From positions 1,426,001-1,490,000 of the forward strand of contig NZ_VFPL01000001.1 of NCBI RefSeq assembly GCF_006716645.1: a stretch of 64,000 nucleotides of DNA, read 5' to 3'. This stretch comes from Arcticibacter tournemirensis (GTDB lineage: Bacteria > Bacteroidota > Bacteroidia > Sphingobacteriales > Sphingobacteriaceae). The notes below the pieces were generated by a model. It saw only the letters and a program-made list of their open reading frames with translations. It made no database searches and was not told the DNA's origin. The first letter of the stretch is position 1; each line of letters starts with the position of its first letter. The translations under genes were made by a program, and so were the position numbers. This document shows, in pieces, positions 21,083 to 22,233 of the stretch.

Positions 21083-22153
21083 ATGTATGCTATTCAGCTA
21101 TCCAGTGATGACCAAAGTCATCAGGGCCTTTCTGTGCCCTCATTTTCCCGCCAGTTACCCCGGCTTAAACAGTTTATCCCCCGGCACAGCCTATGCTTAG
21201 ACACGGCAGCCTATTTAGCGGCATCGGCGGTTTTGACATCGCCGCTGCCTGGATGGGATGGCAAAATATTTTCTCCTGCGAAAGAAATCCTTTCTGCCAG
21301 ACCATACTACAACATTACTGGCCAAACACTCATCATTATGACGACATCTTTCAATTCAGCGCAGCTCAGTTTAGGGGACACGTTGACATCATCAGCGGGG
21401 GATTTCCCTGCCAGCCATTCAGCCAGGCCGGAAAGCGAAAGGGCAAAGCGGATGACCGCTACCTCTTCCCGGAGGCTTGCCGAATTATTACAGAAGCAAG
21501 GCCAGAGTGGATCGTTCTTGAAAACGTTGCTGGCCTGTTCAGCATTCTCGAACCAGACAGTTTATCTGAAATGGAAATTAAAGCGGTTGAGCTTTTTTGT
21601 CAGGACGGTGACCACGGGGCGGACAGTACCATTATCCGGCTCCAGCGCAGAGTTATCGGAAGCATCATTTCAGAGATCGGTGCCGCAGGATATGTATTAC
21701 CGCAGCTTAAAGACGGCACACCAGTCGTTCTGTGTATTCCGGCTGCTGCCCTTAACGCCCCGCACCAAAGGGACCGGGTCTGGTTTGTTGCCCACGCCGA
21801 CGGCGACCGAGATCAGCAACATCGGGACTACGACCGCCCAGGTCAAACAGGGCCGCGAACTGGCCGACCGCAAGAACGACAAGGGAACCGGCGGGCAGGT
21901 ATCCCTGACGGATTTTCTGATCTACTACACGCTACAGGCACAATCGACACCATATCCACCGGCACCGGAAAATATGCCAGTCTCCATATTGGATCGCCTG
22001 ATCCGCATCCTGCCCACAGCGGAACAGACTGGCAGCACACGGTTCCCGGCTGGGAAGCATGGCCAGCTGAACCCCCGTTTTGTGGCGGAAATGATGGGCT
22101 TCCCGCCGAACTGGACGGAATTACCTTTTCTGCCTGGCGTGGGGAAAGTGTGA
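21083..22153 (+). CDS. Second long reading frame overlapping the methyltransferase gene
   Basis: A 356-codon frame with an ATG 110 bases upstream of the methyltransferase start and a stop inside that gene. Several stretches look like a real protein family seen in phage and mobile DNA beside methylases: GQSGSFLKTLLACSAFS, then VYLKWKLKR; LLPLTPRTKGTGSGLLPTPT; and LNPRFVAEMMGFPPNWTELP near the C-terminus. The same bases encode conserved methyltransferase sequence in another frame, for example NDGLPAELDGITF opposite MMGFPPNWTELPF. Either both proteins are made, or one frame is an evolutionary ghost of the other. Resemblance is from memory and needs a search. Confidence 0.4.
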   Translation: MYAIQLSSDDQSHQGLSVPSFSRQLPRLKQFIPRHSLCLDTAAYLAASAVLTSPLPGWDGKIFSPAKEILSARPYYNITGQTLIIMTTSFNSAQLSLGDTLTSSAGDFPASHSARPESERAKRMTATSSRRLAELLQKQGQSGSFLKTLLACSAFSNQTVYLKWKLKRLSFFVRTVTTGRTVPLSGSSAELSEASFQRSVPQDMYYRSLKTAHQSFCVFRLLPLTPRTKGTGSGLLPTPTATEISNIGTTTAQVKQGRELADRKNDKGTGGQVSLTDFLIYYTLQAQSTPYPPAPENMPVSILDRLIRILPTAEQTGSTRFPAGKHGQLNPRFVAEMMGFPPNWTELPFLPGVGKV

Positions 22154-22233
22154 AGGCTTACGGCAATGCCATTGTCCCGCAGGTCGCCCTGGAAATCTTC
22201 CGCGCCATCCAGGCCGTTAACCGGCAGCTTTAA
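21193..22233 (+). CDS. DNA (cytosine-5-)-methyltransferase
   Basis: A 346-residue C5-methyltransferase: motif I LFSGIGGFDIAA (residues 7-18), motif IV GGFPCQPFSQAGKRKGK with catalytic Cys near 74, motif VI WIVLENVAGL, motif VIII APHQRDRVWFVAHADG and motif X GNAIVPQVALEIF at the end. Residues about 215-290 are the variable recognition region. No restriction partner is adjacent, so it is an orphan, as usual in conjugative elements, where it may mask the element from host restriction. It stands 11 bases before the mobC-like gene. Almost the whole gene is overlapped by a second long frame. Confidence 0.85.
   Translation: MLRHGSLFSGIGGFDIAAAWMGWQNIFSCERNPFCQTILQHYWPNTHHYDDIFQFSAAQFRGHVDIISGGFPCQPFSQAGKRKGKADDRYLFPEACRIITEARPEWIVLENVAGLFSILEPDSLSEMEIKAVELFCQDGDHGADSTIIRLQRRVIGSIISEIGAAGYVLPQLKDGTPVVLCIPAAALNAPHQRDRVWFVAHADGDRDQQHRDYDRPGQTGPRTGRPQERQGNRRAGIPDGFSDLLHATGTIDTISTGTGKYASLHIGSPDPHPAHSGTDWQHTVPGWEAWPAEPPFCGGNDGLPAELDGITFSAWRGESVKAYGNAIVPQVALEIFRAIQAVNRQL

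Follow-up and report, generated by a model that had tools for sequence, protein, structure and literature searches.

A 64,000-nucleotide stretch of the Arcticibacter tournemirensis genome (NCBI RefSeq assembly GCF_006716645.1, contig NZ_VFPL01000001.1, positions 1,426,001 to 1,490,000 of the forward strand; hereafter the window) contains a C5-cytosine DNA methyltransferase gene, M, and inside it a second gene, X, read on the same strand in another frame. We think it probable that together they encode one methyltransferase made of two polypeptides from a single stretch of DNA, in which X is the target-recognition domain (TRD) and motif IX. X is open, conserved and under purifying selection, and its C-terminal module is homologous to a segment that actinophage methyltransferases carry in cis. 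An earlier note, made from the sequence alone, had pointed to two same-strand open reading frames (ORFs) and read them as two protein families. Both ORFs are present, at 21193-22233 (M, 346 amino acids) and 21083-22153 (the X frame, 356 amino acids), and the second frame behaves as a real gene; what the two encode is most likely a single enzyme in two parts and not two unrelated families.

Two genes in one stretch of DNA

In profile searches, M matches PF00145 (E 6.1e-34) and phrog_363 (E 2.6e-64), and its closest named relatives come from Pedobacter genomes (71-82% identity). Motifs I, IV, VI, VIII and X were identified in it; motif X (YGNAIVPQ) lies at the C-terminus of M, 3' of the end of X. 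The earlier description of M as a C5 methyltransferase complete in its motifs holds for the enzyme type and for these five. It fails for the TRD and motif IX, which were not found in M's own polypeptide: codons 206-318 are unconstrained in the M frame and mostly disordered in the structure model.

X codons begin at the second position of M codons (the +1 frame). X proper has 271 codons (271 amino acids; 816 bases with the stop) and lies entirely within M, which replaces the 356 codons and roughly 960 shared bases first proposed for it. It matches phrog_1008 (E 7.6e-14); NCBIfam gave no match to X, and Pfam only a sub-threshold one (E 0.2). The features of the two genes are listed below.

21193..22233, plus strand: M, catalytic polypeptide of a C5-cytosine DNA methyltransferase, 346 amino acids (ORF, PF00145, phrog_363, alignment to M.HhaI)
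21208, 21397, 21520, 21766 and 22159, plus strand: motifs I, IV, VI, VIII and X of M
21338..22153, plus strand: X, overprinted +1-frame gene, 271 amino acids, proposed TRD/motif-IX polypeptide (conserved ATG, openness, conservation, selection)
21359..21376, plus strand: AQLSLG near the N-terminus of X, a variant of a clamp-binding-like motif (position; family enrichment)
21785..22114, plus strand: C-terminal module of X, LLPTPTATE to LNPRFVAEMMGFPPNW (homologue of the actinophage in-frame segment between motifs VIII and X)
21808..22146, plus strand: M codons 206-318, without detectable constraint as a whole and predicted to be disordered, mostly below 50 in the predicted local distance difference test (pLDDT) (NN/SN ratio, defined below; model)
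22159..22233, plus strand: motif X and C-terminal helix of M beyond the end of X, under strong M-frame constraint (NN/SN, model)

The X frame is free of stops

As a null, we permuted the synonymous codons of each gene over the region from GGFPC to GNA; we then compared the numbers of X-frame stops, scoring identical regions once. Twenty-three of 353 loci were dropped for want of an ORF with both motifs, including ordinary C5 loci (L027-L030, with 3-9 X-frame stops per roughly 110 codons) and broken ones (L019, L020, L044). In the sample gathered with M as query, 81 of 85 distinct genes lack an X-frame stop where 3.6 are expected, with 23 stops in total against 236.5; 21 of the 23 fall in three ordinary C5 methyltransferases (L045, L046, L054). 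The second frame is not random, as the earlier note had held. Searching viral contigs with X itself, as protein and as profile, we took the best 80 of 479 and the best 80 of 585 confirmed matches. All 110 distinct genes of this sample are stop-free (1.4 expected; 0 stops against 414.8), a result that selection by X favors.

Methyltransferases of the ordinary kind behave differently. The X frame of 69 phage C5 genes of the Javan6 type holds 765 stops against 866.4 expected, and none of the 69 is stop-free; across 74 distinct ordinary C5 genes there are 3-15 stops per gene. The third frame shows no general deficit of stops (for example 990 against 991 expected in one X-query sample, 176 against 200 and 254 against 231 in two M-query samples). 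An earlier form of the test, on a fixed core of 127 genes, found 135 stops against 594 expected; judging by position, the single stop left in most of those genes is probably X's own terminal stop. In none of ten other phage records (Philonius, ArcusAngelus, Sparxx, Sitar, prophiGD91-2, Javan6, Vibrio 1.233.B, Halomonas, NV1.1.1 and phiKp_16) was the +1 frame open beyond the synonymous null (P 0.12-0.99), so the full X type does not occur in all phage C5 methyltransferases.

The two frames are constrained over different parts

Among 15 representatives sharing less than 55% M identity, the columns of X reach a score of 215 where the null gives 26.5 (z 33.3). Fifty-three of the 55 columns with z above 3 lie inside the X gene, the other two before it. 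The block LNPxFVxEMMGFPxxW reaches z values of 17.5, and in four of its columns X is 93-100% conserved, against 47-73% for the commonest residue of M. A second frame that proved stop-bearing or unconserved in related elements, or a mere methyltransferase shadow, had been named as the outcome that would count against the idea; the frame is open and conserved there, and X is more conserved than M's synonymous choice allows.

Purifying selection on each frame, which the earlier note had proposed to examine, was assessed from single-base differences between relatives, each sorted by what it does to M and to X, with bootstrapping over codons. SN/SS compares M-silent changes that alter X with changes silent in both; NN/SN compares changes altering both proteins with those altering X only. 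The first set joined the window to 23 related loci from Pedobacter, Sphingobacterium and their allies (269 pairs). For X, SN/SS is 0.33 [0.24-0.48] over M codons 51-205 and 0.43 [0.30-0.66] over codons 206-318, against 0.92 before X, 0.71 in the short part after it (no usable interval) and 1.05, 0.92 and 1.00 in three flanking genes. For M, NN/SN before X is 0.20; within the overlap it goes from 0.28 in the first half to 0.98 [0.83-1.15] over codons 206-318, and it is 0.17 [0.08-0.27] over codons 322-345, after X. Where a TRD and motif IX belong, M evolves as if almost neutral while X stays constrained.

The same split recurs in 27 Lactobacillus phage loci, where M NN/SN over the four regions is 0.09, 0.19, 0.86 and 0.01, and X SN/SS within the overlap is 0.20 and 0.39; X is stop-free over the aligned codons in all 27. 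X is under purifying selection in two phyla. Conserved beyond the synonymous null and selected in this way, it bears out the overprinting that the earlier note had suggested.

X probably begins at an internal ATG

The conserved start of X is the ATG at 21338 ('MTTSFNSAQLSLGD'). In relatives, the open part of the X frame starts around M codon 50, in some cases earlier, and runs to about 25 codons short of the M terminus; 5' of the 21338 position, the frame carries stops in most of them. All 130 X frames examined have an ATG 10-24 codons before the shadow of the GGFPC motif. Grouped at 70% M identity, 62 of 62 clusters have one within a single 15-codon stretch, against 36 expected by synonymous shuffling, the stretch having been picked after the data were seen. 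A methionine also precedes the MTATSG-type block in 29 of 30 loci of the sample gathered with the M of locus L250, and conservation of X above the null sets in about 13 codons 3' of the ATG. The upstream ATG at 21083, first proposed as the start, was rejected: the frame before 21338 bears stops in most relatives, and only two of the 55 high-scoring columns precede the X gene.

The C-terminal module of X has homologues in the M frame

The C-terminal part of X consists of LPTP modules and terminates in LNPRFVAEMMGFPPNW. A hidden Markov model (HMM) of this part, made from 80 rows (67 of set A3 and 13 further phage loci), was searched against 1680 proteins, both methyltransferases and other ORFs. 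Four matches were strong: Philonius (1.5e-12), Sparxx gp79 (1.7e-12), prophiGD91-2 (3.6e-12) and Sitar (6.2e-8). The next were ordinary C5 enzymes at E 0.76 and up, which is not significant. In another search with an X C-terminal HMM, weak matches to such enzymes fell on GFPxxW or LTPREC, at E 3.8 and worse. Philonius, prophiGD91-2 and Sitar carry the module in the frame of M itself, after motif VIII and before motif X. Sparxx has two overlapping genes in different frames, gp80 for the catalytic part and gp79 for the module together with motif X. Because of this homology and in-frame position, the module of X corresponds to a segment carried in cis at the place of the TRD and motif IX. The exchange of frames suspected by the earlier note is likewise seen here, the homologue of the X C-terminal part being read in M's frame in actinophages.

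In a tree of the catalytic domain (n = 27), a branch with support 98/94 sets the overprinted and actinophage types, plus a single long-branched Halomonas row, apart from the rest; the tree omits 14 rows that resisted trimming (nine overprinted and five ordinary ones) and three of the Lactobacillus set that the motif pattern missed. In spacing, LNPRFVAEMMGFPPNW of X matches LTPRECWRLQGFPDW, and the motif IX label is our reading of that spacing. Profiles of X and M show no relation to one another. From these comparisons, X is most likely the target-recognition and motif-IX part of the enzyme, made as a separate polypeptide.

The actinophage methyltransferases L287, L291 and L293 also have a shorter X-like ORF in the +1 frame that ends in LPTPRA-type modules, with matches to the X profile in L293 and L287. 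Further LPTP modules and MMGWPxGW or MMMLPxGH stand in their M frame. It is as if the modules in these three genes had changed frame.

X occurs with M and comes in cassette types

Among 256 loci, 249 have an X ORF, and in 248 of these X and M are in register; in the remaining locus (L166) the end of the contig keeps the overlap of X and M below the 300-base limit. The only loci with M and no X were seven of the ordinary C5 type. No stand-alone X away from M turned up in the viral contigs, among the best 80 of 479 and best 80 of 585 matches, and a rather insensitive search for phrog_1008 in 198 genomes of the phylum gave two, both at known M loci. X is present in phages of Paenibacillus, Lactobacillus, Bacteroides, Pseudomonas (Haboob), Salmonella (SEN5) and Burkholderia (BcepC6B).

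Lactobacillus phage X proteins come in three cassette types. In 47 of 296 pairs, the N-terminal parts are at least 85% identical and the C-terminal parts less than 40%, as would be expected if the C-terminal part were a specificity domain. The N-terminus itself often reads QLTLF or QTSLF, and QLxLF is the sliding-clamp consensus according to the available text of PMC4549789. A strict clamp-like pattern occurs in 24 of the 62 clusters (0.7 expected) and a loose one in 41 (4.0 expected), both patterns having been picked after the data were seen. The window's X has QLSLG, without the F of the consensus. No Pfam homologue of X, its N-terminal half included, was found for the 67 X proteins of set A3, all of which match phrog_1008. 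That family is named DNA methyltransferase and X has none of M's catalytic motifs; the name probably derives from the overlapping gene.

A Bacteroides finegoldii plasmid (L377:2001-2801) has an X homologue of 31% identity. The genes listed there, from a collection whose gene table is incomplete, include only a 'hypothetical protein' at 2510-2890 and no methyltransferase. In the Sphingobacterium-type loci L013, L043, L019, L044 and L020 the M frame is shifted or interrupted; X is open over 317 codons in L019 and L044, and interrupted too in L013 and L043. These broken loci may reflect sequencing error or decay.

Upstream of M lies one further feature.

21087..21200, plus strand: short ORF of 37 amino acids in the third frame, with its stop overlapping the M start (translation)

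It begins MLFSYPVMTKVIRAFL and terminates across the M start codon; comparable ORFs precede M in six of 11 related loci inspected (L002, L031-L035), an arrangement in which translational coupling is possible. Neighboring ORFs look by eye like a Toprim-type protein, a MobC-type protein, a relaxase and a ParA, which suggests a conjugative element.

Structure models

The model of M has a mean pLDDT of 66. Averaged in blocks of ten, residues 1-200 score 59-95 and the C-terminal helix 82-90, and values fall below 50 at residues 209-256, 258-300 and 309-324. Aligned to M.HhaI, it gives Z 19.6 and a root-mean-square deviation of 2.9 over 215 residues. The model of X is best at residues 161-230 (blocks 67-83), which are encoded by the same bases as M residues 209-278. 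No sequence relative of X was found in the PDB.

A probable two-polypeptide enzyme and its alternatives

We propose that M is translated from 21193, perhaps coupled to the short upstream ORF, and that X is translated on the same message from its own internal ATG at 21338 in the +1 frame. M would supply cofactor binding and catalysis (motifs I-VIII) and the C-terminal motif X, reading the bases it shares with the recognition module as a disordered linker up to that motif. M lacks a TRD and motif IX, and the C-terminal half of X would supply both. With its N-terminal half X presumably attaches to M; this half may also anchor the enzyme elsewhere, perhaps at the replication clamp. The two would assemble into one enzyme, with X binding M and giving it sequence specificity.

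Several results weigh against this proposal. Every M query came from a locus that carries X (the window, L087 and L250). In L013, M is shifted near residue 40 and the X frame is interrupted, with two stops in the tested region. For Haboob, SEN5 and BcepC6B there is the openness test only, at P 0.016-0.022 each by shuffling. The third frame, which shares the same third positions, also scores above the conservation null (z 13.4), a sign that the null is imperfect. X is loosely constrained in three 30-codon windows that start at M codons 241-271 (SN/SS 0.81-2.73). In the ordinary Javan6-type family, which lacks X, SN/SS over the whole gene is 0.67 [0.57-0.80], and M NN/SN in 40-codon windows over codons 161-361 falls from 0.82 to 0.28 (ratios from 45 of 74 distinct genes); the baseline there is below 1, yet M is constrained over most of that TRD. 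The X ATG is absent from L262, the one exception among the 30 loci, and 127 of 130 loci show no Shine-Dalgarno-like pattern before X. Bacteroidota genes often lack such a sequence. Compared with profiles of ordinary C5 methyltransferases, X gives a probability of 1.5% and E 0.033, which is not significant, so the link to a canonical TRD comes from the actinophage in-frame homologues and from spacing. Finally, the AlphaFold model of X is weak (pLDDT 58.5; predicted template modeling score 0.33) and has no match at E < 0.001 in BFVD or the PDB; the lack of a structural match is no evidence for a new fold.

One alternative is that X has no initiation of its own and that a +1 ribosomal frameshift near motif VIII fuses the catalytic domain to the C-terminal module. 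The shift of constraint from M to X near the LPTP site after motif VIII fits this, as does the overlap of a catalytic gp80 and a gp79 with module and motif X in two frames of Sparxx. We consider it unlikely: X is also constrained upstream, over M codons 51-205 (SN/SS 0.33 [0.24-0.48]), it has a conserved ATG, and a fusion of the window type would be without motif X. A frameshift product might be made in addition to the two polypeptides; it would leave the ATG and the constraint on the first half of X unexplained.

X might instead be a genuine overlapping gene whose function is unrelated to DNA recognition by M, for example regulation of M or an action on the host. An N-terminal half without Pfam homologue and a clamp-binding-like motif at the N-terminus of many relatives would suit such a role. 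This too seems improbable, since actinophage methyltransferases carry a homologue of the C-terminal module in cis, X was not seen away from M in the loci sampled, and M loses its constraint exactly at that module.

An HNH or homing insertion of the kind known from the ShiLan domain was rejected, with no Pfam match in 67 X proteins and no sign of insertion. That X is a shadow ORF, M's motifs and codon usage keeping the +1 frame open and conserved-looking, is hardly credible: several X motifs do lie on top of conserved motifs of M (VWFVAHA over LLPTPTA), and in close relatives the identities of M and X track each other, but the stops predicted by synonymous shuffling are absent while the ordinary C5 genes hold them, X is conserved where M varies, and the column-wise null and the selection ratios in two phyla reject it as well.

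Beyond the two-polypeptide enzyme itself, we hold a wider reading tentatively and with some doubt. The locus could belong to a widespread methyltransferase family of phages and mobile elements with its recognition domain on a separate, fully overprinted polypeptide, whose modules have moved between frames of the same DNA (M's own frame in actinophages, the +1 frame elsewhere) and been swapped as cassettes in X, and whose X N-terminus docks on the host's replication clamp so that methylation follows the fork.

Implications

Prokaryotes seem rarely to have long overlaps on one strand in which selection is measurable in both frames. This one is common to phages and mobile elements whose hosts are Bacteroidota, Bacillota and Pseudomonadota. 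In both groups examined for selection, constraint is split along the gene, with the catalytic part in the M frame and the recognition part in the X frame. X is listed as its own gene in none of seven inspected X-bearing annotated phage records outside Paenibacillus and in two of three inspected from Paenibacillus; the specificity polypeptide of many phage methyltransferases may therefore be absent from annotation, and M cloned alone may give an inactive enzyme. The actinophage in-frame forms make the origin of the overprinted gene directly testable, and X cassettes could offer a route to read and swap methylation specificity.

Comparison with known systems

Two Paenibacillus phages carry annotated X homologues: Diva gp50, with the note 'g49 internal gene', and Leyra gp62, called a DNA-cytosine methyltransferase. 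Neither these records nor PHROG 1008 gives a function for X as such, selection on it or a relation to a TRD. Two rows of the gene table in PMC6070908 are DNA-cytosine methyltransferases, numbered gp62 and gp63 in one column; the overlap is not discussed in the available part. In the PMC literature, a coverage outside which subscription papers lie, we found no description of an overprinted gene within this family of methyltransferases.

The ShiLan domain is an out-of-frame HNH endonuclease in a phage methylase, a homing insertion (PMC11855218, available text). Like X, it is a second protein in another frame within a phage methylase gene. Gordonia phage Sitar (L291:1874-2341) has an annotated HNH endonuclease (gene 5, with the note 'delete') in another frame within its methylase gene, which resembles ShiLan.

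The actinophage proteins Philonius gp55, prophiGD91-2 gp27 and Sitar gp4 share with the window a related catalytic domain and a module of the LPTP ... MMGWPxGW type. Unlike in the window, their module is in M's own frame, in one polypeptide, and a shorter X-like +1 ORF remains. M.AquI (CYCGRG) has its catalytic part and the recognition region, or part of it, on two polypeptides, according to the accessible text of PMC3404938. In the window, by contrast, motif X stays on M and X lies entirely inside M; Sparxx gp80/gp79 looks closer to the M.AquI layout. A clamp-docked X, if real, would be a bacterial analogue of the maintenance methylase that binds the clamp in animals.

The closest precedent is M.EcoHK31I, and the window pair may be of the same kind. 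Its small gene reportedly lies inside the large one in another frame, an arrangement ascribed to Lee, Kam and Shaw in 1995. In the consulted part of PMC3404938, this enzyme (YGGCCR) is described as two polypeptides, the larger with motifs I-VIII and X and the smaller with only motif IX, and its predicted TRD is placed in the larger; the accessible text of PMC3439449 terms it naturally split, and that of PMC4081073 does not mention EcoHK31I. The window's M likewise has motifs I-VIII and X without motif IX. Compared by published description only, the pair differs in having a TRD-type module in X and an unconstrained stretch in M. What is new here is the spread through phages and mobile elements of several phyla, a recognition module assigned to the overprinted frame, swaps of X cassettes and an N-terminus that is often clamp-binding-like.
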